From Clostridia bacterium (lineage in GTDB: Bacteria; Bacillota; Clostridia; Lachnospirales; Lachnospiraceae): 64,000 nt of DNA. The notes below the pieces were generated by a model. The model ran no database searches, had not been told where the DNA came from, and saw nothing but the letters and a program-made list of their open reading frames with translations. A program made the translations under genes and the position numbers. The stretch is from positions 124,001-188,000 of the forward strand of contig CAJTDE010000005.1 in NCBI GenBank assembly GCA_910574835.1. Reading direction: 5' to 3'. Shown here piece after piece: positions 1 through 37,273 of the stretch (the first letter of the stretch is position 1; each line of letters opens with the position of its first letter).

Positions 1-1560
1 GTGTATGATGCTTATGGAATGTCGGAGGCCTACAATAGTACGGATGGCAACAACCCCACGTCCGGCGCAGGAAATCCATACGGTTACAATGGGGAGTACA
101 CCGATCCGGATACCGGCTTCCAATATCTAAGGAGCCGCTACTACAACAGCCAGACGGGAAGCTTTCTGACGGAGGACACTTATTCGGGAAGCATCTTGGA
201 ACCCTTAAGCCAGAACCGCTACATCTATACGGGAAACAACCCGGTGAACCTTGCGGATCCCGGCGGCCATGCCTGGATTAGCGGGACTGCGGCAAAGGTA
301 GCGGCAGCAGCAAAGAAAACGACATCCAAGCCAGGGGCGGTGAAATCCGGTGCGGCAACGGCGGTAAAGAATGCGACAAAGAAAGCAGTAACATCCACAA
401 AGAATACCGTATCAACAAGCAGTCAGAAGAGCAAGGGAAGTTCGAAACAGAATTTAAGCAAGGGTGTTAAAACGGCATCTACAAAGCAGCAGAAGATCGT
501 TACAACTTCAAGTAAAAGTTCCGGTTCCTCTTCTGCAAAAAAGAGCTGGGAAAGTGCGGTAGCCGGCAGTATCACGGGAATAGCGGCAAGCGTAGTCAGA
601 AGGCTTACACCAGGGCATAGTTATATCAACAACAAGCTGTTCACGGCCAGCAGTGCAAAGGAGAGGAAGCTGTGTTCCAATGCAGGAAGGGCGACAGCCG
701 GTGTTAAGCCTACTACGGCAACGGTAGCGCCAGTAATACCCGGAGTTTTTGAAGGACTGGGTGCTCTGTTGTCAGCCTTGGAAGGAGCCTTGGCCGGAGC
801 GGTAGGGGGTGTAGTTGGCAGCGTAATACTACCAGTGGCTTTAGTGGCAGCAGTAGCCGCTTTAGGTATAGGAGCGTATAAATATCTGTCAGAAGAAAAG
901 GTGGCATTGACACCTACTATTGCTGAGCAGATACTTGAGATGGCAAGGAAGAAGAAAGAAGAACAGGAGACCATTAAAGTCGGGCCTGAGGATTATGATG
1001 TTTTAGATAAAGATGGAAATGTGATTTACAAAGGAGGAGGTGGGAGTCAAAATAATAATGATGATGGAGAGGAAAAGCCAGCCCCGGTAGAGCCTAAGCC
1101 GGAAAGCAGTGGTTCGAGTTCGGAAAATGTTCCGGAGGTGAGTGGAGAAAGTGGCAAGTATTCTGAGGAAGAAATAAAAAATATCTTAGATAATCTAAGG
1201 GGCGATGGATTTAAAAATAATCCTTTAAGGCAAGCATATGAGAATGAGGTTGCTGGATTGAAAGAATATGGGGAGGAGTTGTTGGAAAGTGGAATGTCAG
1301 AAGAACAAGTGGCTAGGACATTGAATAAAGCGAGAAGAGATCTGGGAATTAAATATAAAAATGCAACACCACAACCACTCAGAGACTACATTTATGAAAT
1401 TAATATGAAAAGATATGGAGACATATTAGGTCCTACATATGACTGGTTAGTAAATACAAAAGGGGCTACAAATATAGAGATAATTGATTCATCTTCTCGA
1501 CCGAATTTGGATATTGATAAGTTATTATCGGGATTTGAAGAATGGCTAAGGGGGCAGTAA
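1..1560 (+). CDS. Rhs-family toxin, C-terminal part (5' end outside window)
   Basis: This is the 3' portion of an Rhs polymorphic toxin gene that enters from the left; base 1 is not its start. Around residues 25-90 it carries the Rhs-associated core (YNGEYTDPDTGF, LRSRYYNSQTGSF, NRYIYTGNNPVNL), which in this family closes the shell and precedes the cleaved toxin tip. A Lys/Ser/Thr-rich linker (about 100-185), a long Gly/Ala/Val hydrophobic stretch (about 247-292) and a Gly/Asn/Ser spacer follow. The last 140 residues are the variable tip and their DNA becomes AT-rich. The tip has a basic helix (NKARRDLGIKYK) and a Trp-rich end; I do not recognise its toxin family. The next gene starts two bases after the stop, as expected for an immunity gene. 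The linker is nearly identical to that at 10731-11330. Confidence 0.9.
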   Translation: MYDAYGMSEAYNSTDGNNPTSGAGNPYGYNGEYTDPDTGFQYLRSRYYNSQTGSFLTEDTYSGSILEPLSQNRYIYTGNNPVNLADPGGHAWISGTAAKVAAAAKKTTSKPGAVKSGAATAVKNATKKAVTSTKNTVSTSSQKSKGSSKQNLSKGVKTASTKQQKIVTTSSKSSGSSSAKKSWESAVAGSITGIAASVVRRLTPGHSYINNKLFTASSAKERKLCSNAGRATAGVKPTTATVAPVIPGVFEGLGALLSALEGALAGAVGGVVGSVILPVALVAAVAALGIGAYKYLSEEKVALTPTIAEQILEMARKKKEEQETIKVGPEDYDVLDKDGNVIYKGGGGSQNNNDDGEEKPAPVEPKPESSGSSSENVPEVSGESGKYSEEEIKNILDNLRGDGFKNNPLRQAYENEVAGLKEYGEELLESGMSEEQVARTLNKARRDLGIKYKNATPQPLRDYIYEINMKRYGDILGPTYDWLVNTKGATNIEIIDSSSRPNLDIDKLLSGFEEWLRGQ

Positions 1561-1562
1561 AT

Positions 1563-1991
1563 ATGAGTGATACAGAAAATATAATTGAGCTATCAAATAT
1601 AGAAATATATGAATATTGTACACTGAATATAAAGACAGGAGAAAAAGAATATTACAAGACTAAAAAGAAAATATCATATTTTACAGGTTTTTATTATAAA
1701 CATGATGATATTTTTTTTGCATTATATCCTACAGTAAATGGACCTATAATGTATTATGAAGGAAAAGAATATCCATTAAAGAAAGATTTACATATTAGTT
1801 TATTAAAAATGGAAAGGTTAAGGGTATTTTCTATTAAAGAATATAATATTTGTATCAAATATAGTACATCACCATATATCGGATATGATGTATGGTCCGA
1901 GGAGATTGATATCGATCTGTTTTATCAAATTAAACAATTATATAAAAATGATGACTATTACAAAAAATTTACAAAAGATCCATGTCAGTAA
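1563..1991 (+). CDS. Probable immunity protein to the preceding Rhs tip
   Basis: A 142-residue acidic, Tyr/Ile/Lys-rich cytoplasmic protein with no signal peptide. The ATG at 1563 is preferred over one at 1542 (which would overlap the toxin by 19 bases) because it follows the toxin stop directly and has a GGGGG-type ribosome site. Position immediately behind a toxin tip, small size and low GC are the usual marks of an Rhs immunity gene; the assignment rests on context, as I recognise no family. Its last bases overlap the next toxin-tip ORF (1982), which shows that the next cassette was joined here by recombination. Confidence 0.7.
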   Translation: MSDTENIIELSNIEIYEYCTLNIKTGEKEYYKTKKKISYFTGFYYKHDDIFFALYPTVNGPIMYYEGKEYPLKKDLHISLLKMERLRVFSIKEYNICIKYSTSPYIGYDVWSEEIDIDLFYQIKQLYKNDDYYKKFTKDPCQ

Positions 1992-2821
1992 ACCCTATAG
2001 GAAAGATATTCCTAAAACAAGAGAATGGTGTTTTTCCTGGAATAGGGAGTACGGTGATGGAGATTGCGCAGAGGGTGATTAAGGAGCAGGAAGAGCAGAG
2101 AAAAAGAGAGGAATCTTTAAAGAAAACAGAGAATGATAGCAGTGTGAATTTCAGCACTTCGCCTGGAAATGGAGAAAGCCCCGTTGATCTGATTAATGTC
2201 ATGAATAAATGGGCGTTAATTGAGGATATAAGGGGGGCCGAAGGTGTAGGGAATGTAATGGAGATATATAGTAACTATATGAAAGCAGCTGCAAATTTAG
2301 AGGATTCCAGCAAGGTTAGCAGAGGAACTTTGGCTATAATCAAAGAGATAGAGATAGGAGATGAGGGCAATTTGGTTGATGGAATATATATTAAAAATCA
2401 TCAGGCAGAGGATACCGGAATTACTGTGGGGTTTGGTGAAAATATAAAATTAAACATGCAGACAGATTATAAAGATAGATATAATATCTCAGATTTTACT
2501 GAAAATGGGAAAGTAGATATTATTACAGCAACATATCTTTTAGTAGAGCATGTAGATAATGATTATGGGGTAATTTCTGAAAACCTCCCTAACTTAAATC
2601 AAAACCAATTAGAGGCTTTGGTTTATATGAGGTATTTAACAGGAAATGTTGTTCCAGAGGCGAAAGAAATAAAAGCTAATAAATATCAAATTGGGAGAAG
2701 CGAATTACGGAATGTATTTATACAGCATTTATCAAAAAATAATAATTACAATGTTAATAAAGATGGATGGGAAGAACGGGTAGAAAAAGCACTGGATTTA
2801 TATTACACACCCATAAGTTAA
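1982..2821 (+). CDS. Orphan Rhs toxin tip, lysozyme (GH24)-like
   Basis: A 279-residue displaced Rhs C-terminal cassette. Residues 1-37 (MSVNPIGKIFLKQENG and onwards) match the pre-toxin linker inside the Rhs gene at 7096, so this tip once sat on a full Rhs protein. The rest resembles phage-type lysozyme (glycoside hydrolase 24): an IKEIEIGDEG segment, then GITVGFGENI (compare YTIGIGHLL of T4 lysozyme) and later LNQNQLEALVYMRYLTGN, like the family's LTxNQxDALVSFxFNxG. This suggests a peptidoglycan-cleaving toxin acting outside the membrane. There is no Rhs shell, so it is either a silent donor cassette or made as a free protein. The TAA stop is completed by the first base of the inserted IS982 element. 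The lipoprotein at 3460 is the likely immunity partner. Confidence 0.7.
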   Translation: MSVNPIGKIFLKQENGVFPGIGSTVMEIAQRVIKEQEEQRKREESLKKTENDSSVNFSTSPGNGESPVDLINVMNKWALIEDIRGAEGVGNVMEIYSNYMKAAANLEDSSKVSRGTLAIIKEIEIGDEGNLVDGIYIKNHQAEDTGITVGFGENIKLNMQTDYKDRYNISDFTENGKVDIITATYLLVEHVDNDYGVISENLPNLNQNQLEALVYMRYLTGNVVPEAKEIKANKYQIGRSELRNVFIQHLSKNNNYNVNKDGWEERVEKALDLYYTPIS

Positions 2822-3459: not shown

Positions 3460-4005
3460 ATGAAAAAAATATGTACATGCATGATAATAGCAATCGCATT
3501 GATGAGTATGGACGCTTGCACAGCACAGGAGCAGATGGGAAAACTAATTTTTGGAAAAGAAAATTTAATGTTGGAAAAAGCTACGGAAGTTGCAAAAAAT
3601 TCACAAGCACTATCTAAGGAAAATGATGGGGAAGAATATGAGCAAATTTTTATTTCCGATACACAGTTTGTAGAAATTCATTATGGAAATATGGAATTAC
3701 CAGTAAGTGTTGTAGATGAGCAAGTAGATGATCCTTTTTATTATGATTATTATAAAAAAGATATAGAAAAAATGATCTTGAATGAAGAAATGGCAAAGGA
3801 TGTTGCTTTTGTTCTTTTGAAACCTTATTTTAGTAAGTTTTCAGGAAATATCTTCTTTTGCGTACAGTATATACCAGACTATGGATATTATTTTGTGGAT
3901 ATAGGCAGATATGAATCTGTAGTTGGTTATCGTGTGGAGCTTGTATTAGATGAAAAAGACGGAAGAGTAGTATACTTGTGGGATATAGATCCTAGTTTGG
4001 GATAA
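3460..4005 (+). CDS. Lipoprotein, probable immunity to the lysozyme-like tip
   Basis: A 181-residue protein starting at 3460 (AGGAG 9 bases upstream) with a type II signal: MKKICTCMIIAIALMSMDAC, giving Cys20 as the lipidated residue. The mature part is acidic with many Tyr and Phe residues and no family I recognise. Excising the IS982 element places its ribosome site directly on the stop codon of the lysozyme-like toxin at 1982, so the two were once one bicistronic cassette. An extracytoplasmic anchored protein is the right location to neutralise a cell-wall hydrolase. Immunity is inferred from these two facts. Confidence 0.7.
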   Translation: MKKICTCMIIAIALMSMDACTAQEQMGKLIFGKENLMLEKATEVAKNSQALSKENDGEEYEQIFISDTQFVEIHYGNMELPVSVVDEQVDDPFYYDYYKKDIEKMILNEEMAKDVAFVLLKPYFSKFSGNIFFCVQYIPDYGYYFVDIGRYESVVGYRVELVLDEKDGRVVYLWDIDPSLG

Positions 4006-4352: not shown

Positions 4353-4940
4353 TGCTTTTAAAAATTTTAAAATAGTTACAAAGAAGAGAATAGGATAGGT
4401 ATGAAAATAAAAAAAATAGAAACTTTTATGATTGCTGGAATATTTTTATTTGCCTGCAGTCGTAGATTATTTTTTTACGAACAAACTAGTAAACAAAATG
4501 AGCTAAATATTGCCGTATCAAGTATTTTTGGAACTATTCTGTCTTGTGATAAAGAAGTAAAACATCAGAATCCTTATTTTTACGATGCAAATTTATTTAG
4601 CCTAAGTGCGGAAGCATCGTACTATAGTACTATATCGTTTGATGCTAAGGAAAAAGTAAATATAGAAGGAAAGCTGATAAAAAATTATGAAAATGGTGAT
4701 TTGTTCAAACTTAAAATAGGTTTTTTTGAGGATCAGGGATTAATTTATGATAATACATACAAGACCCCTATATATTTAACTGGCGATAGAGTGGTATTTT
4801 ATTTTTATGTAACAAATGAAAAAATATACTTAGTCAATCCATATATTTATAATGAACGAGAAAAACAGGTTTATGTTGGATTGAATAATGAAATGATGTT
4901 GGGGTCAAAAGAGTTTTTAGAAACTCTCTGACTTCCTATA

Positions 4941-6716
4941 TAGTACCTTGAAAATTTTACACAATCCTTATGAGGATAAGATTTTGCATATTTATCTGTG
5001 ATATTGGATAGTTGGCTTCTGCTTTATCATACCAATATCAGGTTTTCGGCATAGTGCCCCAGGCCCTTCCGATATGTGAAGAGCTTTTTAAAGTTCAATG
5101 CCCCGATTTTGCAGCCAAAGAAAAATCTTCCGCTTATCAGTCCTCTGACTGGCATCCTGTCAGTATGGTAGATTCTTCTCAAAATGGAGGGTACTGTTTC
5201 TACTCCATTTCGGATTTTAAAAAGATTGTGGAATTCTTCCGTTCCCATGTACCGTTGTTGCTTTGCCCGTTCATGGGCTTTTACCGATACCGTTACTGAA
5301 CTGACTCGTTTATGAATCTTCGCTTTGCATCGGTCTTTGTTCGGGCATCCTGCACACTGCTCTCTTTTAAACGATATATGGAACTGCTGGGATTTACTTC
5401 CTGTATATCCACAGGATTTTGGTTCATATCCTGCCGGACATCTCAGAACCTTTGTTCCTGTTTCGTTAAAGACGAAATCTGCAAGGATATCATCGACAGG
5501 CTTTCCGGATAAATCGGTATTAACCAGACGGATGTTCTTTTCTTTGGCAAGATCATGGTTTACTTTTCCTGAATAAGCACCGTCTGTAACAAGGATCGTT
5601 TCTTCTTCCTGTACTTCCTTGCGTCCCAGGCTGTCTTTCAAAAACTGGCTGTCGCTGTAGTTGTTCTGCTCGTACTGATAATCCGTGATGACAGAGCCGT
5701 TTTTACCGACTGTCTCTTCCAGATTGGCAGCATACCCCCGATGTTCTTTCCCGGCTTTTTCCCTGAAAGTTGCATCTGGGTCAGAAGGATTCTGAAGGAT
5801 TCCGGAATGAAGCCCACCGTCTTCTTTTGTGCGGAGACGGCGAACCGCTTCTTTTACAACGGTTTGTTCCGAAAGGCAGCGGACCAGAAGCTGATATTCC
5901 GTAACGTCATCATAGTCGGAACCGCATATAGACAGTAGTTTATCTGCGTCTTCGAGGATGTTCTTTAATCGGTTATCCGTTTCAGAATCATTATTGTAGT
6001 AAAAGGTTCTGTTGTAATCATTCGGGTCACAATAATGTCCAAAGTCTTCCGGCAGGACATCCGGATTATTTTTATGGAAATAAACAGCTAGCTTTGCCAC
6101 GCAGGTATAAAGCAGCTCTGTACGGCTGAGTTTTCTGATATTTGCAGCAATCATCATAGAATCCATCCGCTTGATTCGGGGATTAAGATCTATCATTTTT
6201 GCGATTTTCTCACTCAAGCTTGTAATGCAGTTATGGAGTAAATCTATTCCGTAAGCAGACTCATAATCATAGCAGCGTTTGCGGAAGCGTGAAAGTGTTT
6301 TGTCACTCAGAGGCTGTTCTTCACAGCTTGTAGTATGAAGAGCATACTGATACCGGGGATCCAGCATTAAATTTTCAACGATTTCATCATCCGAAATGCC
6401 GAAAACTTCTTTAATGATCAATGCACCAATACAGACATTTACTGGTGTATTTGGTCTTGAGGCATTAGAAGAATATAGAACTTCAAATGGTTCTTCATTT
6501 ATGAAGGGGAAAATATCCTCTGCAAATGATTTTGCCCATGAGTGTTCTAATGCCTTTTGCTCCCGGAACGTCAGCCCGGAAAAACTGTCTGTAAGAGATA
6601 ACTGCTGATAAGAATTTGTTCTAAATGACATATGTATTTACCACCTTCACTTGATAGATACAGTATATCATAGCGGGAGGAAAATAGTGTGTTTGTGTAA
6701 AATTTTCAAGGTACTA
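4941..6716 (-). mobile_element. IS1182-like insertion sequence, apparently complete
   Basis: 1776 bp with perfect 24-bp terminal inverted repeats that start TAGTACCTTGAAAATTTTAC at 4941 and end at 6716. One intact transposase gene fills the interior on the minus strand. The flanks repeat only TA, so the target duplication is short or unclear. The insertion point is inside the centre of a small palindromic element. Confidence 0.85.
5027..6631 (-). CDS. IS1182-family transposase
   Basis: A 534-residue DDE transposase. The N-terminus (MSFRTNSYQQLSLTDSF, then GALIIKEVFGISDDEIVENL and PLSDKTLSRFRKRC) is typical of IS1182 proteins. A later DGAYSG motif and a Cys-rich segment (CAGCPNKDRCKAK) match the C-terminal half of the family. 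Length is full for the family and the frame is intact, so the element may still move. It lies between perfect terminal repeats and opposes the surrounding Rhs genes. Confidence 0.92.
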   Translation of the reverse strand: MSFRTNSYQQLSLTDSFSGLTFREQKALEHSWAKSFAEDIFPFINEEPFEVLYSSNASRPNTPVNVCIGALIIKEVFGISDDEIVENLMLDPRYQYALHTTSCEEQPLSDKTLSRFRKRCYDYESAYGIDLLHNCITSLSEKIAKMIDLNPRIKRMDSMMIAANIRKLSRTELLYTCVAKLAVYFHKNNPDVLPEDFGHYCDPNDYNRTFYYNNDSETDNRLKNILEDADKLLSICGSDYDDVTEYQLLVRCLSEQTVVKEAVRRLRTKEDGGLHSGILQNPSDPDATFREKAGKEHRGYAANLEETVGKNGSVITDYQYEQNNYSDSQFLKDSLGRKEVQEEETILVTDGAYSGKVNHDLAKEKNIRLVNTDLSGKPVDDILADFVFNETGTKVLRCPAGYEPKSCGYTGSKSQQFHISFKREQCAGCPNKDRCKAKIHKRVSSVTVSVKAHERAKQQRYMGTEEFHNLFKIRNGVETVPSILRRIYHTDRMPVRGLISGRFFFGCKIGALNFKKLFTYRKGLGHYAENLILV

Positions 6717-7095
6717 TAGGGACTTTTGACCCCAACATCATGAAATGTTATTAACATACCTTTTATCTACAGATCAGAAAATAATTGCTAATAGTGAAAT
6801 TGTATGCCAGGATGAAAAATTAGATATTGTTGATGAATATGGAAGAGCTATTAATATTGCATTAAAAAATGGGAAAGTCGAATACAGCAGGCGTGAATAT
6901 AATCAAAGTAATGGGGAGTTATCTTTTCATGAAGAGTTTGTATGGGAGAAGGATAAGGGATTAGTTTCTCATGGAAGTGCGTATCGAGTTGAAGCTGATA
7001 TTTTATATTTAAGCGGGATTGAGCAAATATAGGAGTCCGTCTTTTGATGGCAATCCTCTGCGAAGAGGAAGGGAAGCGGGTGTTCTGAATGAGGC

Positions 7096-9402
7096 ATGGA
7101 GACTCCGGAGGGAGAGGTTTATGAAAGACGCTATTGGACCAACGGAACAGATTCGATGGCAGCTCTCTATGACGGAGACGGGAACCGTGTATTTCGGATG
7201 GAGTACGGCGGCAGGACCGGAGGCGGTTCCGTAAGCGGAGCAGAGAAAGAAGAGACTTCCGAATCCATAACCCAGGAGACCGGAGGAGAAGCAGGCAGAA
7301 GCGGCTCGCCTTTAATTCCCCATGCCTGGGAAACGGAGGAAGAGCAGGAAGAGGTAACGGAGACAAGGAACAACATCTTCTGGTACGGCTTCGGCCAGGG
7401 ACTGATTCAGGGACTTACCACCGTGCCCGGTTACTTAAGCCGATGGCTCCACGAGCATTGGGAGTATATTCTTAGGAGAATCGACGTCCACAAGGACTAT
7501 GAGGTCCACACCTTTACGGAGGGAGGGGACGAGGCAAGAAAGCCCAAGGAGGGGGACACATGGACCGCCGCCCTTTATGATGAAATCTTTATACCCTATC
7601 AAGTGGGGGAGGCCGCCCGGGAGAACTATGTGGAGACCAGCTATGTGAATGACGTGAACCGGGCTTATGCGGAGACGTTGATGGAATATCAGGCAGACGG
7701 TTCCGCCGCCAGCATCTATGAATATGGGATTCAGCGTTTAAGCTATACGGATACGGGAAGCCAAGAGCTGTTCACCTATCTCTATGATGGAAGGGGAAGC
7801 GTATCAAACTTAACTTCCCAGTCCGGAGCATCTGTGCTAAGCTATGTGTATGATGCTTATGGAATGTCAACGGCCTACAATAGTACGGATGGCAACAACC
7901 CCACGTCCGGCACAGGAAATCCATACAGTTACAATGGGGAGTACACCGATCCGGATACCGGCTTCCAATATCTAAGGAGCCGCTACTACAACAGCCAGAC
8001 GGGAAGCTTTCTGACGGAGGACAGTTATTCGGGAAGCATCTTAGAACCCTTAAGCCAAAACCGCTACATCTATACGGGAAACAACCCGGTGAACCTTGCG
8101 GATCCCGGCGGCCATGCCTGGATTAGCGGGACAGCGGCAAAGGTAGCGGCAGCAGCAAAGAAAACGACATCCAAGCCAGGGGCGGTGAAATCCGGTGCGG
8201 CAACAGCGGTAAAGAATGCGACAAAGAAAGCAGTAACATCTACAAAGAATACCGTATCAACAAGCGGTCAGAAGAGCAAGGGAAGTTCGAAACAGAATTT
8301 AAGCAAGGGTGTTAAAACGGCATCTACAAAGCAGCAGAAGATCGTTACAACCTCAAGTAAAAGTTCCGGTTCCTCTTCTGCAAAAAAGAGCTGGGAAAAT
8401 GCGGTATCCGGCAGTATCACGGGAATAGCGGCAAGCGTAGTCAGAAGGCTTACACCAGGGCTTGCTTATATGAATAATCAGCTCTTGACTGTTAGCAGTG
8501 AAAAGGAGCGAAAATTATGTTCCGGAGGAGGAAGGCTCCCAAAAGGAAGTGCGGCTGCCGGGGTGGGAGTGATAAAAGGAATCAACCAGGCGATAACAAA
8601 CATCTGGAACAGGTCCATGTCAGTAAACCCTATAGGAAAGATATTCCTAAAACAAGAGAATGGTGTTTTTCCTGGAATAGGGAGTACGGTGATGGAGATT
8701 GCACAGAGGGTGATTAAGGAGCAGGAGACACAAGTTAAAAATAATGGGGAAAAAAACTTGTGGACAGAATTGTCATCCGGAGTTGCGACTTATTTTGATC
8801 AGAATCATATAACAGAAGAGCAAATGGAAGTAATAAACAAAAATATTGAGGATGTATTTGGGGGGAGGAAAGTATATATTCCAGATACGGTTACAAAAGT
8901 GGTAAATGGAGTCACTTCCGAAGTGCATCCTAATATTGATTGGTGGATGATTGGAAATGGTAGATATCCTATAGGGGTTCAAAAAGAGGATGAAAAGTAT
9001 AAAATTGCGGTAGGGCCTAAAATAATAGACCCCGAATATCCAGACGATGGGAAAATACAAGATGATGATTTTGATGGATACTCAAAAAATGTAAAATTAA
9101 TATTAGAACATAAAGTTACAGGAGAAGAAAAGATAATAGAGTGTACAGTAGTAGATTTTAAAGCACATTCATATAATACATATCCAGATGGCCAACCTTA
9201 TAATACGGGTGATATAGTCAGTTTTGATGTGGAAAATGGTCTTATACAAACAGGCATTGCCTATCCGGAATCAAGTAATGCAAAAAAACCAGGGGCTTTC
9301 ACAAAAGAAAGTTCGGACGGAAATATAATTGAATTTGCAGGCCATGCATTAGACTTTGATCCGAATGAATATGTTTTATGCCATTTAATTGTAGTACAAT
9401 AG
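7096..9402 (+). CDS. Rhs-family toxin, truncated shell with uncharacterised tip
   Basis: 768 residues. The reading frame enters in the middle of an Rhs protein (METPEGEVYERRYW, AALYDGDGNRVFRMEYGG), so most N-terminal YD repeats are missing; ATG 7096 is a nominal start with a weak GAGG site. The core is at residues 275-335 (YNGEYTDPDTGF, NRYIYTGNNPVNL). A Lys/Ser linker follows, then the pre-toxin segment MSVNPIGKIFLKQENG near residue 510. The tip (about 545-768) has the pattern YKIAVGPKIIDPEYPDDG, DFKAHSY, IIEFAGHALDF, which I know only as a recurring uncharacterised architecture, possibly a small beta-barrel. It lacks an obvious nuclease motif. The membrane-anchored gene at 9440 is the likely immunity partner. 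Confidence 0.82.
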   Translation: METPEGEVYERRYWTNGTDSMAALYDGDGNRVFRMEYGGRTGGGSVSGAEKEETSESITQETGGEAGRSGSPLIPHAWETEEEQEEVTETRNNIFWYGFGQGLIQGLTTVPGYLSRWLHEHWEYILRRIDVHKDYEVHTFTEGGDEARKPKEGDTWTAALYDEIFIPYQVGEAARENYVETSYVNDVNRAYAETLMEYQADGSAASIYEYGIQRLSYTDTGSQELFTYLYDGRGSVSNLTSQSGASVLSYVYDAYGMSTAYNSTDGNNPTSGTGNPYSYNGEYTDPDTGFQYLRSRYYNSQTGSFLTEDSYSGSILEPLSQNRYIYTGNNPVNLADPGGHAWISGTAAKVAAAAKKTTSKPGAVKSGAATAVKNATKKAVTSTKNTVSTSGQKSKGSSKQNLSKGVKTASTKQQKIVTTSSKSSGSSSAKKSWENAVSGSITGIAASVVRRLTPGLAYMNNQLLTVSSEKERKLCSGGGRLPKGSAAAGVGVIKGINQAITNIWNRSMSVNPIGKIFLKQENGVFPGIGSTVMEIAQRVIKEQETQVKNNGEKNLWTELSSGVATYFDQNHITEEQMEVINKNIEDVFGGRKVYIPDTVTKVVNGVTSEVHPNIDWWMIGNGRYPIGVQKEDEKYKIAVGPKIIDPEYPDDGKIQDDDFDGYSKNVKLILEHKVTGEEKIIECTVVDFKAHSYNTYPDGQPYNTGDIVSFDVENGLIQTGIAYPESSNAKKPGAFTKESSDGNIIEFAGHALDFDPNEYVLCHLIVVQ

Positions 9403-29890: not shown

Positions 29891-30334
29891 AAATTATATG
29901 AATAAAATTCCCGTCCACAGGGAATACTAAAAAGTTTGCCCAAAGTATTGACATGGGTACAGCCGCTATGGTATTCTGAAATACCCATGAGGGAATTGGA
30001 AGATTGAAAATGAAATAGCACATAGATGGAAGAATGAAATGTCAGCCAATGGATAAGGCTGACTGCCGCCGAACGTAAGTCGTCCTTTTCGGCTGGCGTA
30101 TGGCAGCAAGGTTTTGAATCCCAAAGCCGTTACATAGCATTGCGAATCTGAGCAGGAGAAAACACTCCTGTCATTCGTGGTGCGGTGTGGCGGCTTTTTC
30201 ATTTATCCAAAAGTCAAGAAAAATCGAATCCAGAACGGAGGTGGAAAGGACATAGGATTTTCTTTTCGGCGGGTAAGGCAGGTATGGAAGAATACTGCTG
30301 CACAGGAAAAATGCTCTGCGGCGTTGTCCACAGA
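29891..30334. other. Non-coding region before the mobilization genes
   Basis: About 440 bp without a supported gene. It contains several short dyads (for example CAGCC/GGCTG pairs at 30039-30060) and GC-rich stretches. Such leader regions commonly precede oriT in mobilizable elements. Confidence 0.45.
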
Positions 30335-30420
30335 GATAGCGAGCATCGGATTGTGTCAGCCACAATCCCGCCCACACAAAACAAGTGGGCGTAACTTACT
30401 CAGGGGACATCCCCTGTTTA
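30335..30420 (+). other. Candidate origin of transfer (oriT)
   Basis: The inverted pair CCCAC/GTGGG (30369-30388) is followed by GCGTAACTTACTCAGGGG, directly upstream of mobC and the relaxase. An inverted repeat next to a nick-like GTAACTTAC sequence just before MOB genes is the normal arrangement for an oriT. The exact nick site is not shown by the sequence alone. Confidence 0.5.
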
Positions 30421-30459
30421 CCCCGAAGAAAGAAAAATAAGACTGGAGGATTGAGGAAA

Positions 30460-30816
30460 ATGAGCAGAGAAAAATCAGAAAAGGTTGTGCGGAGTGTCCC
30501 GATTACTGTCCGATTGAACGAGGAAGAACATGAAAAATTAAAGCAGTGCGCCGCCGCTTGCGGTCTGTCCACCGCCGAATTTATGCGCCAGTTATGCAAG
30601 GGAAACGCCCCTCAGCCACAGCCTAAAACCGAGTTTTGGGAACTGCTAAACAAGCTCTATGAGGTGCATGACGCTTTCAAAAAGTGTGTTCCCTACTATC
30701 TAACCGCCGCCGAAATCTGTAAGGAGATTGAGGATTTTATCTTAGAACTGCAACAGAAAATAACTCTCCCACTACGATTTAATGTAGAAGAACTGATGGA
30801 ACAGGGGGCGGTCTGA
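30460..30816 (+). CDS. mobC: MobC-like relaxosome accessory protein
   Basis: 118 residues from ATG 30460 (TTGAGGAAAA upstream). Ribbon-helix-helix-type start (RSVPITVRLNEEEHEKLKQC, CGLSTAEFMRQLCKG), as in MobC/RHH proteins that bind oriT and help the relaxase nick DNA. It ends one base before the relaxase start. Confidence 0.8.
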   Translation: MSREKSEKVVRSVPITVRLNEEEHEKLKQCAAACGLSTAEFMRQLCKGNAPQPQPKTEFWELLNKLYEVHDAFKKCVPYYLTAAEICKEIEDFILELQQKITLPLRFNVEELMEQGAV

Positions 30817-30817
30817 T

Positions 30818-32182
30818 ATGGCAACAACGAGCTTATGGCATATCAAAGGGCGGCTGAAAGACCTCATTGATTATGTGGAAAATCCAGAAAAGACCATGCC
30901 GAATGAAGATATGCAGGACTTCTTTGACGTGTTCTCCTATGTGAAGAATCCGTTAAAAACAAACGAGGGCGAGTATGTTTCCGCAATCAACGCTCTGAAA
31001 GAAACCGCCTTGCAACAGATGATTTTGACAAAGAAGCAGTACCAAAAGACAGGCGGATATATTGCATGGCACGGATACCAGAGCTTCAAACCAGACGAGG
31101 TAACGCCCGAACAGTGCCACGAAATCGGATTAAAATTAGCAGGGGAAATGTGGGGCGATAAATACCAGATAATTGTTGCCACTCATCTTGACAAAGGGCA
31201 TCTGCACAATCATTTTTGTTTCAACTCTGTTTCTTTCATAGACGGACAGAAATATAATTACTCAAAATCAGAACAGAAAAGGTTGAGGGAAGCGTCCGAC
31301 CGCTTATGCCGAGAGTACGGTTTATCGGTGATTGAAAACCCCAAGAAAGCACCATCCAGACCGCTTTATCTGGACGAAAAGAACGGAAAACCCACACGGT
31401 ACAATGTCTATCGGGAGGATTTAAGGGAGGCAATCAATGGGAGCAGGGATTTACAGCACATGATGAAATACCTTGCCGATAAGGGATATGAGGTTGATTT
31501 TTCGGGCAGCCATTGGAAAATGAAGCTGCCGAAATACAAACATTTCACGAGATTAGACACGCTTGACGAGCGGCTAACCCCCAATTTCATACAGTCATGT
31601 TTAGGCGGGGCTTCCCGATATGGGAACTACAAAGCAAAGATTTCCTACTCTCCCCATATGCCAGAGCAGTATAAAAATGCATGGAAACCACATCAAAAAA
31701 CCACGGGGATTTTAGCGTTGTATTACTACTGGTGCTATCAGTTGGGGATATTCCCCAAAGGCACGGACTACAAGCCGACAAGCCCGCTGATGAAAGAGGA
31801 ATTGCGGAAGTTAGATGAAATCACCACACAGGTACGGTATATGTCCAAGCATAACATTTCCACCCTCTCCGACTTACACGCCGACAGGGAGAAAAACCAG
31901 ACCGAAATGAATAAACTGATTGACTACCGCCAGCACGTGCGGAACAAGGTACGCCGTGCCACACCAGCCGAAAAAGAAAAAATTCGGGAAGAAAAACGGT
32001 GCGTGACGGAGCGGATAACGGAGCTTAGGAAGCGGCTGAAATATGCAGACAGGATTGAAAAACGCTCCGCACACATTGATGACTGCTTAAACCAAATCTA
32101 CGACACGATTGAAAATCAGCGGTCAAACCGACAGAAACAGCCAGTTAAAACAGCACGCAGGAGGGAGGAACCATTGCGATGA
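30818..32182 (+). CDS. Relaxase for transposon mobilization
   Basis: 454 residues from ATG 30818. N-terminal relaxase domain with the metal-binding histidines in ATHLDKGHLHNHFCFNSV (HxDxxHxHNHF type, MOBP/VirD2-like) near residues 127-144. The catalytic Tyr is likely in the first 60 residues (DYVENP, FSYVKNP). The C-terminal third is basic and coiled. It nicks oriT for transfer by a co-resident conjugation system; no transfer pilus genes are present, so the element is mobilizable rather than self-transmissible. Confidence 0.9.
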   Translation: MATTSLWHIKGRLKDLIDYVENPEKTMPNEDMQDFFDVFSYVKNPLKTNEGEYVSAINALKETALQQMILTKKQYQKTGGYIAWHGYQSFKPDEVTPEQCHEIGLKLAGEMWGDKYQIIVATHLDKGHLHNHFCFNSVSFIDGQKYNYSKSEQKRLREASDRLCREYGLSVIENPKKAPSRPLYLDEKNGKPTRYNVYREDLREAINGSRDLQHMMKYLADKGYEVDFSGSHWKMKLPKYKHFTRLDTLDERLTPNFIQSCLGGASRYGNYKAKISYSPHMPEQYKNAWKPHQKTTGILALYYYWCYQLGIFPKGTDYKPTSPLMKEELRKLDEITTQVRYMSKHNISTLSDLHADREKNQTEMNKLIDYRQHVRNKVRRATPAEKEKIREEKRCVTERITELRKRLKYADRIEKRSAHIDDCLNQIYDTIENQRSNRQKQPVKTARRREEPLR

Positions 32183-32481
32183 GCAGACTGTCCGAGGAAG
32201 AAATACAGGCGATTATGGAGGAATACAAGGACGTCCCTATGGTAAATCCAGACAAAATATATCCCCCTCTGCCGCCTGTCCAGAACGTCACGCCCCTTGT
32301 CCGCATCCCAGAGCCGATGAGCCTTACCGAGAAAATCGGCGGCACGGAATACACCGTCAACGCCCATTTCCGAAAAGACGGGCGGGACTTGCTTGTAATG
32401 CTTACGGATATTTTTCGGCGCAGCGCACAGGGATATGGATTTTATGATAATGAGAATTGGGGTGATGACGACGGGGAATAA
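32179..32481 (+). CDS. Small transposon protein with TnpW-like C-terminus
   Basis: 100 residues; the ATG overlaps the relaxase stop (ATGA). The C-terminal part IGGTEYTVNAHFRKDGRDLL resembles TnpW, a short Tn4451 protein of unknown role; the N-terminal Pro-rich part (YPPLPPVQNVTPLV) is extra. Translationally coupled to the relaxase. Confidence 0.6.
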   Translation: MSRLSEEEIQAIMEEYKDVPMVNPDKIYPPLPPVQNVTPLVRIPEPMSLTEKIGGTEYTVNAHFRKDGRDLLVMLTDIFRRSAQGYGFYDNENWGDDDGE

Positions 32482-32589
32482 CAGGCAGCGGAAGAATTAT
32501 CACTTTAAAGCGTTGAAGTTTAAGGGCAGATGTGGTATACTGTACCTACACTTCACAATACCGTGTCTGCTGTCGGAAAGGAGAGCTTT

Positions 32590-34248
32590 ATGAAAAGACA
32601 GCAGGAAGAATTCACGGCATTATATTGTAGATTAAGCCAAGATGATGGGCGGGAAGGTGAAAGCAACAGCATTGTAAACCAGAAAGAATATCTGATGAAA
32701 TACGCAAAAGAACACGGTTTCCCTAACCCGAAATTCTACGTGGACGACGGCTATACGGGTACGAATTTTGACCGCCCAAGCTTTAAGGAAATGTCGTCGG
32801 ACATTGAAAAAGGGTTTGTAAAGACCGTCATTGTCAAAGACTTATCACGCTTCGGCAGGAACTATATCGAGGTCGGCTCATACTCCGAAATCATCTACCC
32901 CGAAGCGGGCGTGAGGTTCATCGCCATCATGGACAACGTGGACACGGGCAGCCTTGAGAGCAACGAATTTGCCGCCTTTACCAACCTTTTTAACGAATGG
33001 TATCCCAAAAGCACGAGCAAAAAGGTAAAGGAAGTCAAGAAAGCGAAAGGGCTTGCAGGCGAGCATTTGGGCGCACCGCCTTATGGGTATTTGCGGAATC
33101 CAGACGATAAAACACGTTGGCTTGTGGACGAGGAAGCGGCGGCAGTTGTCCGCAGGATATTCTCACTCTGTATACAGGGAAAAGGCGTGTCAGCCATTGC
33201 CACAGCCCTCTGGGAAGACAAGGTGCTTACCCCGTCAGCCTACAAGGTGTCAAAGGGAATCGGCGTTGCAAAAAAATCGGAACATCCCTATAACTGGGAA
33301 ACGTCTATGATTGCATCCATTCTGGAAAATGTGGCATATATCGGCGTGACGGAAAGCTTTAAATCCACCCGTTTAGGCTTCAAGAGCAAAAAACGCATCC
33401 CAACCGCAAAGGACAGGCGGACGTATATCGAGGACGCCCATACGCCCATCATTGACAGGGATATGTGGGAAAAAGTGCAGATGATACGGGCGAACAAACG
33501 CAGACCGACCAAAAGCGGAACGACAAGTATCTTTTCGGGGCTGCTCTATTGTGCCGACTGCGGGGCGAAACTCAGCTTAGCCACAGCAAACGGATATGAG
33601 CATTTCCGTTGTTCCATGTATAAAAGGACGAGCAGGGCAAAGGAATGTACACAGCACTATATCCGAGAGGACGCATTAAAACAATTAGTTCTGAAACAGC
33701 TCCAGCAGTTCCTCTCCTATTTACAGCAGTTTGAGCGTGTGTTTATCCGACAGCAGATTGACGCCACCCTTGCAGAACGCAGATACGAGTTATCCGCAAA
33801 GCAGAAACAGATAGAAAAGGACGAAAAGCGGATAAAGGAGCTTGACCGCCTGTTCCGCAAAATCTATGAGGATAATGTCAACGGAAAGCTGAATGACGAA
33901 CGCTTTTACAAGCTGTCGGACGGATATGAAGCCGAGCAGGAACAGCTAAAGCAGGAAATCGAAACCTTGACAGCCGAGGTCAGCGAAGCCGACACGGAAG
34001 CGACCAATGTCACCAAGCTGATAGCCGTCACCAAGAAATACACCCGCATCGACGAGCTGACGCCCGAAGTCCTAAACGCATTTGTGGATAAAATCGTAGT
34101 CCATGAGCGTGAGAAAAAAGACGGGAAACGGACACAGCAAATCGACATCTACTATTCCTATGTCGGGATTGTGGACATCCCCACGGATGCGGAAATGCGG
34201 GAAATGGAACGAGAATATACGCAGCGTACCAAACGTCAAACCGCCTAA
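32590..34248 (+). CDS. tnpX: TnpX-type large serine recombinase
   Basis: 552 residues from ATG 32590 (AAGGAGAG upstream). Resolvase-type catalytic domain: ALYCRLSQDDG with the nucleophilic Ser near residue 15, YVDDGYTGTNFDRPSF, and KDLSRFGRN. Then a recombinase domain (GAPPYGYLRNPDDKTRW), a zinc ribbon with two Cys pairs (LLYCADCGAKLSL and FRCSMYKRTSRAKEC), and a long coiled coil (about 370-470). Large serine recombinases of this type excise and insert Tn4451-family elements through a circular intermediate. Frame intact, so the element may still be mobile. It lies next to the right end. Confidence 0.92.
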   Translation: MKRQQEEFTALYCRLSQDDGREGESNSIVNQKEYLMKYAKEHGFPNPKFYVDDGYTGTNFDRPSFKEMSSDIEKGFVKTVIVKDLSRFGRNYIEVGSYSEIIYPEAGVRFIAIMDNVDTGSLESNEFAAFTNLFNEWYPKSTSKKVKEVKKAKGLAGEHLGAPPYGYLRNPDDKTRWLVDEEAAAVVRRIFSLCIQGKGVSAIATALWEDKVLTPSAYKVSKGIGVAKKSEHPYNWETSMIASILENVAYIGVTESFKSTRLGFKSKKRIPTAKDRRTYIEDAHTPIIDRDMWEKVQMIRANKRRPTKSGTTSIFSGLLYCADCGAKLSLATANGYEHFRCSMYKRTSRAKECTQHYIREDALKQLVLKQLQQFLSYLQQFERVFIRQQIDATLAERRYELSAKQKQIEKDEKRIKELDRLFRKIYEDNVNGKLNDERFYKLSDGYEAEQEQLKQEIETLTAEVSEADTEATNVTKLIAVTKKYTRIDELTPEVLNAFVDKIVVHEREKKDGKRTQQIDIYYSYVGIVDIPTDAEMREMEREYTQRTKRQTA

Positions 34249-34316
34249 ATACAGGCGTGGCAGGAGAAAATCTATGCTCCTGCCGATACATATCTATTTT
34301 TTATCCCTATCTGGTT

Positions 34317-34702
34317 TAACCCATGTTTTGCAGGCGTTTCAACAAATTGGTTGGGGTATAGAAAATAGCTGCGGCGAAGTGGAATTTTTGCCATTGGGCG
34401 ATAATGGCATGTATGAGTGGTTACGTGAAGAAATATCACAAACTAAATTATATAGTATTATTTCAAATAAAATCGCTAATAAGGAGCAGATAGGAATTAA
34501 TTTATTTAATGACAATAGCATGGAAGGAATTTCCTTTATAGCAGATAGTACAGAGCAAATTATACTGAGTTTATCAATAAATAGAAAAGTAATTAAGGGA
34601 AAATATACAGATTTAGTTTGGTATTTAGAGAATATTGTATATAAACTTTTTGATATTGGAGTTGATATACGTTCTTATATACTAGAAGAGTATGGAGATT
34701 AA
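34317..34702 (+). pseudogene. 3' part of the immunity gene split by the transposon
   Basis: Reads LTHVLQAFQQIGWGIENSCG, EVEFLPLGDNGMYEWLREEI and on to YILEEYGD, stop at 34702. The matching start is at 24193, 10 kb away; together they form a clean 147-residue AT-rich reading frame. No recognised family. The present fragment has no start of its own, though it is open to the transposon sequence. Confidence 0.78.
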
Positions 34703-34748
34703 AAATAGAATACTTTAATAAAACTGGAAGAATCAAAAATTAAGTTTA

Positions 34749-35405
34749 TAGTTTATTCAAAAATTCAAGCAATTTTTGAATAACAAGTTTATATTTTATG
34801 ATCCGGATATGAGGCAAAATATATATTTTAAAGATTTTTCTTTAAAATATGTCTCTGCTGATATTCATAATCTTGAAAATAATTCTTTCTATTTTTTTGA
34901 TATAGATGGAGACAGTGTGCCGGAATTATGTATATCAGATAATAATAAGACCTTTGTTTGTGCTTTTGATTATGTTGCGGATAAAGATAAAATAGTGCTG
35001 TGGTATAGTATGAGAAATAGTTATTACAGCCTAAATGGTACAAAAACGGCTCGTTGGGATTGGGACGGAAGCCGTAATCTACTAATAAAACTGAATGCAG
35101 ATGGCGAGGAAGAAATGACTCTGAGTTTTTATTGGAGAAATGATTTTAACCGGAAGAAAAATATAGAAGAAATGTACTATATGTTAGGGTTACCATTGTA
35201 TGCGGAAAAAAGTGAAGAGGACATTATAACAGATGCAATGAAAGCAGAGGCATACTATGACGAATCAACAACAAGATACTATTTTAGAGTTACGGAAGAA
35301 CAATTTGACGAGCTAACGAAAGATTATTTCATTGCTGCTGAACAGGCAGATGAAAATATAAAAGAAGTAACATTTACATATCAGGAACTTTTTGTTCGCC
35401 CTTGA
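34749..35405 (+). pseudogene. DxDGxxPELC-family gene, 5'-truncated
   Basis: The C-terminal two thirds of the family seen at 9440: FKQFLNNKFIFYD, YFFDIDGDSVPELC, TARWDWDGSRNLL, VTEEQFDELTKDYF. Similarity to 9440 starts near 34749 with no start codon or anchor region; TTG 34776 is the first possible start but lacks a ribosome site. The last codons (VRP) are Rhs DNA. It is closer to 9440 than to the 15232 copy. Confidence 0.75.
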
Positions 35406-35619
35406 TTCCCCATGTCCGGGAAATGGAGGAAGAGCAGGAAGAGGTTACAAAGACGAGGCAAGGAAGCCCAAGAAAGGGGATTGCTGGACCTCCACCCTTG
35501 AGGATGATATCTTCATTCCCTATAAAGTAGGGGAAACCGCCCGGGAGAACTATGTGGAGATCAGCTACGTGAATGACGTGAATCGGGCCTATGCATAGAC
35601 ACTGATGGAATATCAGTTA
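35393..35619 (+). pseudogene. Rhs core scrap
   Basis: A GC-rich piece corresponding to 7300-7690 with an internal deletion (KPKKGDCWTSTLEDDIFIPY, ENYVEISYVNDVNRAYA, stop TAG at 35596). It connects the truncated immunity gene to a barstar fragment. Confidence 0.7.
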
Positions 35620-35724
35620 AAATAGGTTTAAAAAAGATTATTTTAGATTGCTTTGAAGAGGAGATGTTGCCATATTGGGAAACGGATGTAGAAAATATGA
35701 AGGTTAATGGCAAAAGAAACGAGC
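35620..35724 (+). pseudogene. Barstar-gene fragment
   Basis: Nearly identical to the end of the barstar-like gene at 19580 (GLKKIILDCFEEEMLPYWET, then VNGKRNE). Only the last third is present, between two Rhs scraps. It records recombination between immunity cassettes. Confidence 0.78.
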
Positions 35725-35860
35725 GGGCCACCACCTACGCTTATTCCGGCTTTATCACAAGAGAGGAAGCAAGACAGCGGGTGGAAGGGAAAACAGAGTT
35801 TTTCATGAATACTTATACTTATAACAATCGGGGACAGCTTGTCTCAGTGTTCACTTTAAA
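35725..35860 (+). pseudogene. Rhs core scrap
   Basis: Encodes ATTYAYSGFITREEARQR, then MNTYTYNNRGQLVSVF, YD-repeat sequence of the Rhs shell, ending as AT-rich DNA with AAAGGAGGT at 35858 begins. Confidence 0.65.
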
Positions 35861-35932
35861 GGAGGTAAAGTCAAAACTTTTTATATATGGGATGGATGTG
35901 CAGCTGATTTTGTTATAGATCTATTAAAAAGT

Positions 35933-36400
35933 TTGGGCTTAATAAAAATGAAAAGGTTATCGATGTCGCGAAAAGACGCTTACAAATTAATTGAAAAAGT
36001 GCATAGCTATACAAATAAGGAAATAGATTTTTCTAATTATATAAAAGAATATCAAGAAATTGAACAAGAAGAATTTGACATAGAATATGAATTTTTAGGG
36101 GTAAGTAATGGATTTTTATCAGAACTTATATACGCAATTACAGGATATAAAGTTGAAGTTTATGGAGAAGTAGAGGAATTATTTACATGCCCTTGTTGCG
36201 GATATAAAACTTTAACAGAGCCATTTAACCCAAAAGAAGGAACAGGATATGATATTTGTCCATATTGTAATTGGGAAGATGATGGAACAACAGATATACA
36301 ATCCTATTGTGCAATTAATAAAGGTAGTATGTTAGATTATCGTAATAAACTTCGCTTAAATTTTAATAAATATTATACAAATAAATGGTTAAAAAATTAG
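35933..36400 (+). CDS. CPCC cysteine-rich immunity-like protein
   Basis: 155 residues with the TTG start at 35933 (ATG 35948 also possible). Near residue 88 the motif FTCPCCGYKTLTE, followed by GYDICPYCNWEDDG, is the Cys-rich CPCC domain found in immunity-type proteins of toxin loci. The frame is open upstream to GTC at 35870, which follows an ideal AAAGGAGGT and would give KTFYIWDGCAADFVIDLLK as N-terminus. A mutated GTG or ATG start there seems likely, so today's start may be poor. Confidence 0.75.
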   Translation: MGLIKMKRLSMSRKDAYKLIEKVHSYTNKEIDFSNYIKEYQEIEQEEFDIEYEFLGVSNGFLSELIYAITGYKVEVYGEVEELFTCPCCGYKTLTEPFNPKEGTGYDICPYCNWEDDGTTDIQSYCAINKGSMLDYRNKLRLNFNKYYTNKWLKN

Positions 36401-36639
36401 ATGATTTAAAAATTTTGTTAAATGAAAGCTGGAAGTGAAAAGCGTCAGACATACCGCCGGTATTCTTATGAAACCAAAGGGGAAACAGGCGGAAGTGGCC
36501 TCCCTGATTTCCCATGCCTGAGAGACACTTATGGAGTACCAGACAGACGGATATGGAAGCATGTCGACAGGAGCAGAAGTACCGGGAGAAGCCGAAAGCA
36601 GAGGAATGGGGATGAAGTAGAAGAAGAGATTCTAAGTTA
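36401..36639 (+). pseudogene. Mixed Rhs scrap
   Basis: GC-richer patches with short matches to Rhs core DNA (GLPDFPCLRD in one frame parallels the LIPHAWE region in another, and EYQTDGYGSM matches MEYQADGS). Not functional. Confidence 0.5.
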
Positions 36640-36906
36640 AGGTAATAATTTCGAAATCGGATATTTTAGCCGTGTGCACGTTCTGCCTTTGCGAAACAGA
36701 CACAGGAACAACCTGCCGGTATCAATCATCAACAATTGTGTAAACAAACAAAATAAAATCTTCAAAAGTTGCTATGAGAGTAGTATAATCATCTTGAAAC
36801 TTCAACATCATGTGTCTCCTTTCATAGTCTGTAGTCGTGTACAACTATAGGATAGCATATGGTGTTGAAGTTTTTCTATATCAACAATCAACTAGCACAA
36901 CAAGTT
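36640..36906 (-). mobile_element. IS982-family fragment with N-terminal transposase region
   Basis: On the minus strand from ATG 36811: MMLKFQDDYTTLIATFEDF, ILFVYTIVDD then TGA, followed in another frame by YRQVVPVSVSQRQNVHTAKI, ending near 36640. The right end (36838-36906, TATCAACTAGCACAACAAGT with a small internal repeat) matches that of the element at 2821-3440. It is the complementary half to that copy. Confidence 0.8.
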
Positions 36907-36946
36907 AATATAATAGATTAATATATTGAGGTTGGAGGACATAGAC

Positions 36947-37273
36947 ATGGATTTAAAAGAACTTATACAGTTAATAGAAAAAAGACCCCAAATGTTTATA
37001 GGAAATTATGGATTAGAAACTCTTTCAGCTTTTATAAATGGTTTTTTGTTTAGCAATAATATAGCACATAAAGAAGACTACATTAGTATTGCTTTTGAAA
37101 ATCAATTTCACAATTGGACAAGAAGAGCATTAGAGAAAAGAACAGGCATAGAATTTGATGAAGAAAGAAATTATGTTTATTATATTAATAAAACATATCA
37201 AGATGAAAGACACCGTTTAAAGATTTTTTTTGAATTATGCAATGAGTTCTTTCAAGTAATAGATTATGTTTAG
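36947..37273 (+). CDS. Small protein of an IxKRPxMYI family, probable immunity
   Basis: 108 residues from ATG 36947 with TTGGAGGA upstream. ELIQLIEKRPQMFIGNYGLE and a C-terminal IFFELCNEFFQVIDYV match the 13803 protein. It is the last gene of the Rhs island, directly beyond an IS982 fragment. Function by analogy and context only. Confidence 0.65.
   Translation: MDLKELIQLIEKRPQMFIGNYGLETLSAFINGFLFSNNIAHKEDYISIAFENQFHNWTRRALEKRTGIEFDEERNYVYYINKTYQDERHRLKIFFELCNEFFQVIDYV

Follow-up and report, generated by a model that had tools for sequence, protein, structure and literature searches.

We describe an array of displaced Rhs toxin tips, rhs scraps and small immunity-type genes that follows a complete rhs gene in a draft Lachnospiraceae genome (5.0 Mb in 133 contigs; 96.0% complete, 4.6% contamination). 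The array occupies the left part of the window, by which we mean the whole analysed stretch of 64,000 nucleotides, positions 124001-188000 of the 201-kb contig C5. The window opens with the 3' end of the rhs gene (519 of 3241 codons; 1..1560, + strand, an open reading frame (ORF) matching TIGR03696), which includes the toxin tip T1 (about 1108-1557). Leftward extension from base 1, as proposed in an earlier note on this DNA, yielded the full gene as a single open frame of 3241 amino acids (C5:115835-125560), with Rhs repeats across much of its length and the Rhs core TIGR03696 at C5:124004-124270. The cognate immunity gene of T1, I1 (1542..1991, +), overlaps the T1 gene by 19 nt. Full-length rhs, YD repeats, Rhs core, variable tip and adjoining immunity gene are all present, and we refer to this gene as the live rhs gene. 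T1, its last 150 residues, matches the end of an ORF of 790 aa at 76% identity in contig G227:C43 (G numbers denote comparison genomes, C numbers contigs and L numbers fetched loci; G000 is this assembly), where an I1 homologue (56%) overlaps the T1 homologue by the identical 19 nt. An Rhs query (residues 901-2700) had no match in this 790-aa ORF at 1e-3. Because the pair recurs, with the same overlap, on an ORF that does not match Rhs, T1/I1 seems to travel between shells as a cassette.

Downstream of I1, C-terminal (CT) fragments with core or linker homology to the main rhs gene are present. The toxin census comprises four tips, T1 to T4, of which T2-T4 are displaced, and one remnant. The earlier note had counted two long Rhs C-termini and at least two orphan tips, and we find both: the C-termini are the end of the live gene (1..1560) and 7096-9402, and the orphan tips are T2 (1982-2821) and T4 (within 10722-11857), to which the toxin remnant at 4071-4352 is added. 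The orphan tip T2 (+) begins with about 36 codons of rhs linker; this homology spans 119 nt only (1973-2091) and is 97.5% identical to the linker of the second Rhs. Family searches and a PDB sequence search gave no useful match for T2 (best PDB E 1.5); judging by motifs, it may be phage-lysozyme-like. The remnant X4071 (+) has a longer, open counterpart on the Rhs protein of G012, to whose residues 2690-2814 it is 51% identical, with an internal gap in the alignment. The second Rhs C-terminus (7096..9402, +; TIGR03696 7.8e-15) lacks the N-terminal part, carries the tip T3 (about 8737-9399) and shares 94% nucleotide identity with the live gene over 1380 nt. T3 had no match in a PDB sequence search, and single-sequence structure prediction gave unusable models for T2 (215 residues) and T3, with mean pLDDT of 36 and 38. 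The last tip, T4 (about 11477-11854), ends an rhs scrap (10480..11857, +) in which YD codons 1858-1935 are fused to linker codons 2853-3100. The linker of this cassette is near-identical to the live linker (299/300 nt), and T4 itself has no relative among 347 other genomes of the family (best PDB E 0.13).

Immunity-type genes are more numerous. The earlier note had put them at about fifteen and as outnumbering the toxins; many are indeed present, the count being 21 loci against four tips and one remnant, and some of the former candidates turned out to be broken halves of a single gene (I3/I4 and 34290). The 21 loci are I1, I2, I3/I4, I5, 13343, 13803, 14645, 15232, 16617, 17051, 18384, 19580, 20199, 20844, 21665, 22398, 23461, 34290, 34776, 35948 and 36926. 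All lie on the + strand, with gaps of up to 618 bp between successive features, several of them filled with scraps. Seventeen are open and four are broken, by IS1182 (I3/I4), a mobile element (34290), a frameshift (18384) and a 5' truncation (34776). A strongly hydrophobic N-terminus, membrane or lipoprotein-like, occurs in six of the 20 checked (I2, I3, I5, 15232, 18384 and 23461; 34290 was not in the set). Few of these genes can be named from domain libraries: the Pfam cut-off was reached by two of 19 scanned loci, a barstar and a CPCC protein, and none of six immunity genes of the window scanned against NCBIfam had a match. We therefore used the neighbourhoods of homologues to identify immunity genes.

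The displaced tips differ in how they stand to their candidate immunity genes. T3 adjoins I5 (9440..10465), a membrane-anchored immunity candidate with an N-terminal hydrophobic segment. Transposase-like DNA separates T2 from I2 (3460..4005), an exported or lipoprotein-like immunity candidate with a hydrophobic N-terminus, and T4 from 13343 (13343..13789), a candidate possibly directed against T4, whose 27% homologue in L139 lies beside a Fic gene. The transposase-like DNA behind T4 (12023..13333, no strand assigned) is degenerate, with ORFs broken as judged by eye and no Pfam match at 12639-13094. Most immunity genes have no preceding CT. I5 has paralogues at 15232 (15232..16332, a membrane-anchored candidate), 18384 (18384..19483, a frameshifted duplicate of 15232 whose 5' two thirds are near-identical while the remainder has diverged) and 34776 (34740..35405, a 5'-truncated copy), and homologues in L129-L131. 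Locus 34290 (24177..34702, in parts of about 24177-24243 and 34325-34702) was assembled by joining the frames by eye against a 163-aa homologue in L133 (G079), to which the right part matches at 42%; this homologue adjoins two immunity homologues of the Tox-PL-2 type. A match to 34290 in G004:C15 was not counted, as it covers only 17 residues derived from the element. Two further candidates, 17051 (17051..17620, at the threshold used) and 20844 (20844..21269), lack homologues.

Homologues of the small genes were sought with concatenated queries in 149 other genomes of the family and 15 of the same genus, one genome per species, so that arrays are compared between species and not between strains, and their neighbourhoods were then inspected. 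At most 4-5 candidates per genome were scored in the 149-genome search, and its matches are lower bounds. Forty loci were fetched around the matches and 25 entered the neighbourhood count; left out were eight whose sole match was a short CPCC one to 35933 (L151, L155-L161), three matching only the element cargo protein 28116 (L125, L128, L162) and four without a local match at 1e-3 (L141, L152-L154).

For 12 of the 21 loci, I1 among them, a homologue stands by a polymorphic toxin or belongs to an Rhs array in another genome. The earlier note had named the absence of the small genes from the vicinity of Rhs or other polymorphic toxins as its refutation, and these homologues do not bear that out. 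One such partner is that of the orphan barstar (19580..19975; PF01337 8.6e-11), which has a homologue (51%) directly behind a barnase Rhs tip (PF00545 2.7e-11) in G004, of the same genus, starting 7 bp after the tip ORF, and another directly behind a barnase tip in L146 (2e-10). Orphan gene 13803 (13803..14171) has a homologue directly behind a papain-fold toxin (Tox-PL-2, PF15643) in L140, and shares with 36926 (36926..37273), the second gene of this immunity family and the last of the array, a homologue directly behind a Tox-PL-2 gene in the Rhs array of L137; the homologues of 36926 in L137 and L133 are 26-30% identical. A closer homologue of 13803 (80%) stands at the start of contig G002:C61, and the DNA preceding it falls outside the contig. 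Both halves of I3/I4 (4401..7032; 4401-4931 and 6745-7032) align to one 274-aa gene in G012, directly behind the Rhs tip related to X4071. The homologue of orphan 14645 (14645..15088; 31%, L136) is the second gene behind an EndoU toxin, that of 20199 (20199..20825, perhaps start-shortened; 43%, L145) lies 3.8 kb downstream of an LXG-glucosaminidase toxin, and one homologue of orphan 22398 (22398..23096; 30%, L149) stands between a probable tip, which has no Pfam match, and a further Rhs fragment; another is found in L147 (58%).

Four orphans have homologues in Rhs arrays of the same genus: 16617 (16617..16856) in G004 (63%), with a further homologue in G015 (62%) 119 bp behind a YD scrap; 21665 (21665..22315) in G012 and G002 (58%); the membrane-anchored 23461 (23461..24006) in G012 (75%); and the CPCC gene (35948..36400, ORF from 35933; PF14206 5.4e-10) in G012 (81%). 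Outside the genus, Rhs lies within 2.1 kb in five of 20 loci (L131, L137, L144, L146, L149; 25 loci in all were tested for Rhs), and EndoU, LXG or Tox-PL-2 genes occur in four more (L135, L136, L140, L145). Rhs cores are so sparse (found in 28 of 61 genomes, ours among them, and never more than ten in one) that five of 20 should, on a rough estimate, be far above random expectation.

The alternation described in the earlier note, of small AT-rich ORFs (GC 0.24-0.35; 79-366 codons) with GC-richer rhs scraps (GC 0.39-0.57), is clearly visible, and so are its recurring scraps, with ten further stretches at a tblastn E of 1e-3 or below after merging of touching pieces, and more short ones by blastn. 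On the + strand these include a fusion of codons 2333-2361 to 2721-2758 (16333..16534), a YD scrap (16928..17023), codons 2557-2585 (18239..18325), a piece with 50 nt identical to the live core (20028..20092), core and linker scraps (21301..21668), a scrap with the YD-to-linker joint of the T4 type (23183..23457; codons 1880-1935 with 2881-2916), a core/linker scrap (24052..24176) and scraps flanking a 102-nt barstar fragment (35396..35897; fragment 35622-35723). The scrap at 23183-23457 shares its joint type with the T4 scrap and aligns with it at 83% and 89%, and on this ground cassettes appear to have been copied inside the array. The statement that rhs DNA borders every cassette was too strong, as the gaps 13343/13803, 20199/20844 and 21665/22398 (13, 18 and 82 bp) contain no rhs match. 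A 60-nt repeat of 90% identity lies near both array ends (3373-3432 and 36831-36890).

Arrays in the same genus have other contents, with shared small genes in other combinations. In G012:C92, a 2814-codon Rhs ORF, without about the first 470 residues of the window protein, is followed by eight AT-rich genes and then by genes that look chromosomal by eye; four of the eight match the window (I3/I4, 35933, 23461 and 21665), in a different order. G002:C61 holds homologues of 13803 and 21665, and G004:C15 of 16617 and 19580. G013:C1 (200001-240000) carries five Rhs-type ORFs with four AT-rich genes, between most of them. Read by size and GC, the ratio of toxin to immunity genes in the genus is near 1:1 in G013 and G004, 1:8 in G012 and 0:5 in G002:C61, where the contig starts at that point. 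Apart from these, G059:C36 shows six core matches within 13 kb.

Synonymous divergence (dS) between the live gene and two displaced cassettes is patchy, falling 5- to 26-fold along the alignments. Against the second Rhs, three consecutive segments (160, 241 and 59 codons) have dS of 0.36, 0.057 and 0.30, whereas the same three segments give 1.11, 0.94 and 1.65 against the G012 Rhs, used as control; in the alignment with the T4 cassette, a stretch of 120 codons has 0.012 and the following 118 codons have 0.31, a comparison without a G012 control. The segment borders were set after inspection of the identity profile. Such a pattern is what exchange between the live gene and displaced copies would leave, and it supports this possibility. 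Paralogues 15232 and 18384 form a similar mosaic, being 94.8% identical (708/747) in the first part and 79.6% (317/398) in the remainder (Fisher's test P = 1.4e-14, for a border placed post hoc and treating sites as independent). The idea in the earlier note that cassettes could recombine onto a full shell thus gains from the patchy dS with the live gene, but most entries have no toxin left to move. The same point bears on another explanation, in which T2, T3 and T4 would be kept for weapon switching onto the live shell and the orphan immunity genes would be a by-product. The near-identity patches in two cassettes, with 299 of 300 nt for T4 and the drops in dS, would fit it, and in Salmonella an orphan Rhs toxin has been described as recombining onto the main gene (PMC3967940); yet no deployable toxin exists across most of the array and T2 retains only its 119 nt of linker homology, and we consider a toxin reservoir improbable.

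We rather favour, as the probable explanation, a locus in which one live rhs gene is followed by a store of displaced CT-immunity cassettes that retain their immunity genes after the loss of most toxins. The conserved core and linker DNA would let an incoming cassette recombine with the live gene, shifting the old tip downstream together with its immunity gene and some of the core; the displaced cassettes, the fused core pieces and the patches in which cassettes and the live gene recently exchanged DNA match this step. The toxin part would then be deleted or broken while the immunity ORF stays, and matching traces are a half-deleted toxin beside an immunity gene and the many immunity genes preceded by scraps or by nothing. 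The retained proteins would protect against toxins of related bacteria that still bear those tips, and judging from the sequences the immunity genes are probably retained as such cross-protection. In these terms the locus is likely to be a polymorphic-toxin locus part-way toward a polyimmunity locus. More tentatively, with the case for and against nearly in balance, it may be a polyimmunity locus in the making, in which cassettes are stripped of their toxins and preserved as a mixed store of immunity genes beside a live shell that keeps exchanging DNA with it; that this store includes proteins acting outside the membrane, a part of the same proposal, is held with equal reserve.

Several findings weigh against the retention of immunity genes from displaced cassettes. 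Nine of the 21 loci lack a convincing polymorphic-toxin context elsewhere: for the I5 family (four loci), one of three homologous loci is near Rhs (L131, 1.0 kb) and two are without it; homologues of 13343 and 34290 have no recognised toxin beside them; and the genomes searched gave no homologue of I2, 17051 or 20844. Eleven of the 20 loci outside the genus have no Rhs, LXG, EndoU or Tox-PL-2 gene, with zero (four loci) or one (seven) Pfam-scanned neighbours. Four of the 21 immunity loci are broken, and a comparison with one genome per species captures turnover between species only. Displaced rhs pieces would be expected to decay freely, yet their ratios of nonsynonymous to synonymous divergence (dN/dS) against the live gene are also low, at 0.32 for the second Rhs, 0.25 for the T4 linker and 0.52 for a YD scrap of 78 codons.

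These last points touch on a neutral graveyard, in which cassettes would decay at random and the immunity genes would be only short and recently displaced, of no benefit to the cell. The four broken loci agree with it, as do IS1182, other transposase remnants and a 10-kb element within the array, the many scraps that are plain fragments and the dN/dS of 0.25-0.32 of displaced rhs. Against it, 17 of 21 immunity loci are open, yet just four tips and one remnant survive, and in G012 and G002 their homologues are open as well. Pairwise Nei-Gojobori estimates, made with our own script, gave dN/dS of 0.19 (35933), 0.25 (23461) and 0.26 (21665) against array homologues in G012, 0.26 for 21665 against G002, and 0.25 for 13803 against its G002 homologue, where the contig start hides what precedes the latter; dS in these orphan comparisons is 0.5-1.05. 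Genes or pieces with a cognate homologue gave 0.19 each (I3, and 19580, the latter saturated), other saturated comparisons with dS above 2 gave 0.10 (16617), 0.12 (22398) and 0.19 (a piece of 34290), and the paralogues 15232/18384 gave 0.40. Because the orphan ratios do not stand clearly apart from those of displaced rhs pieces, pairwise dN/dS alone cannot separate kept genes from relics, and part of the orphan divergence may predate orphanhood. The view of the earlier note that defence is what is kept therefore stays conditional, favoured by the low orphan ratios (0.19-0.26) and tempered by those of displaced rhs. Selective retention of the orphans is suggested by the 17 open loci more than by the dN/dS ratios, and we regard a neutral graveyard as unlikely.

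An assembly artefact, with rhs repeats mis-joined or a contaminating strain admixed, seems very improbable. The draft state of the genome (133 contigs, 4.63% contamination) and the short contigs C71, C78 and C84, which carry more Rhs pieces, would allow for it, and the recG region on contig C57 (G000:C57) is only 81% identical to G007, compared with 98% for the array flanks, which could reflect strain mixture or transfer. The array nevertheless sits inside a 201-kb contig, unique sequence stretches lie between its repeats, and the arrays of G012 and G002 are built alike.

Polyimmunity loci are known from the literature, as are orphan modules and orphan immunity genes of the Rhs type, and the array described here is a large, mixed, Gram-positive variant. 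In Salmonella, Koskiniemi et al. (PMC3967940) describe an orphan rhs-CT that recombined onto the main gene; our locus resembles this orphan rhs-CT/rhsI system in its full gene, its displaced C-terminal fragments with core homology and its recombination with the main gene, and differs in that most entries are toxin-less, instead of a toxin-immunity pair, and the host is a Gram-positive of the Lachnospiraceae type. In Serratia, Hagan et al. (PMC10539506) report orphan Rhs immunity genes that lie downstream of rhs1/rhsI1 and lack a CT, one of which protects, and describe such standalone immunity as a departure from the usual arrangement of CT-I modules. In both cases immunity genes stand alone behind a complete Rhs pair; two genes at the end of a type VI secretion system (T6SS) gene cluster are involved there, compared with 21 loci interspersed with tips and scraps in our array. 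According to Zhang et al. 2012 (PMC3482391), toxin cassettes never interrupt polyimmunity loci, which are set apart from toxin arrays; a heterogeneous Bacteroides locus with 19 immunity proteins and extended loci in firmicutes, among others, are reported there. Our array shares with them many unrelated immunity genes in the same orientation that vary between relatives, for which cross-protection was proposed in that account, whereas it is interrupted by T2, T3, T4 and rhs scraps and so falls outside that definition. Recombining strings of immunity paralogues (esaG, tipC), and a toxin fragment within an immunity cluster (tspA/tsaI), are described for type VII secretion systems of firmicutes (PMC9484751); the 15232/18384 mosaic recalls the former, but the esaG, tipC and tsaI strings are of a single family beside a type VII toxin, and here a heterogeneous set stands beside an Rhs gene. 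An Rhs orphan has also been reported in Streptococcus (PMC12704120).

No such Lachnospiraceae array is described, by title or opening abstract, among the papers that searches of openly licensed literature listed. Orphan immunity arrays of Bacteroidales, gut bacteria, are said to have been described by Ross et al. as mobile, T6SS-directed and Gram-negative. An array of this type has its own mobile element with a tyrosine recombinase. The present locus resembles these as an orphan immunity gene array in a gut bacterium, and differs from such mobile, T6SS-directed arrays in being attached to the bacterium's own Rhs locus; among the subset of ORFs scanned, the only recombinase found lies in the element that interrupts the array.

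If a polyimmunity locus is indeed forming here, orphan CT-I arrays and loci of that kind would mark the two ends of a single process, of which the genus would show stages, from near 1:1 (G013, G004) through 1:8 (G012) to immunity only (G002:C61). The array has the look of a shield gathered against the toxins of neighbours, and it may illustrate how shields of this kind arise. Since it combines a live gene with tips, a half-deleted toxin and stretches of immunity genes only, and arrays in the same genus look like other stages, the origin of orphan immunity stores becomes testable. Toxin partners or toxin-locus contexts can be offered for a dozen immunity loci, most of them without a Pfam family.

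The array has also received insertions. An IS1182-type transposase (named by eye; 5027..6631, -; PF13751, PF05598, PF01609) lies inside I3/I4. A mobile element of 10,081 bp (24244..34324, no strand assigned; PF03432, PF00239, PF07508, PF05569, PF03965), which encodes a relaxase, a serine recombinase and BlaI/BlaR1-like cargo, interrupts locus 34290. The earlier note had described a 37-kb archive; its outline stands, but this unrelated element makes up 27% of that span and, as it interrupts an immunity gene and is not archive material, the archive amounts to about 27 kb. The element recurs at 99.5% identity in G007:C8:81315-91394, in the opposite orientation and with other DNA on both sides. 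At the right array edge (37377, no strand), flank homology with G007 and G002 resumes; the flanks are 98% identical in G007, and no rhs match lies beside them in G007 and G002. An empty insertion site is not demonstrable in either genome, since left and right flanks are on different contigs. Rfam at gathering thresholds gave nothing within the window, and scans of 1400-21000 for promoters (92 promoter-like sites against 69.1, standard deviation 7.5, in shuffles) and terminators (14 against 11.7, standard deviation 3.7) were not informative.

Some minor features concern the element and the neighbourhood of rhs genes. Inverted near-copies (622 bp, 88%) of the 3' end of the recombinase lie near both ends of the element, and its exported cargo protein 28116 resembles the preceding M56 protein over the C-terminal part of the latter (37%). 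In G002:C52, the Rhs tip (L054:13513-14334) resembles a SleB-like cell-wall hydrolase by eye, with no Pfam match above the cut-off; the exported immunity gene behind it resembles, by eye, an orphan of G012 (L048:13557-14417). Just upstream of the live rhs gene, two minus-strand genes (C5:113359-114918) look by eye like another M56/BlaI-like pair, the first of which has a 55% homologue directly before the truncated rhs of G002:C52.

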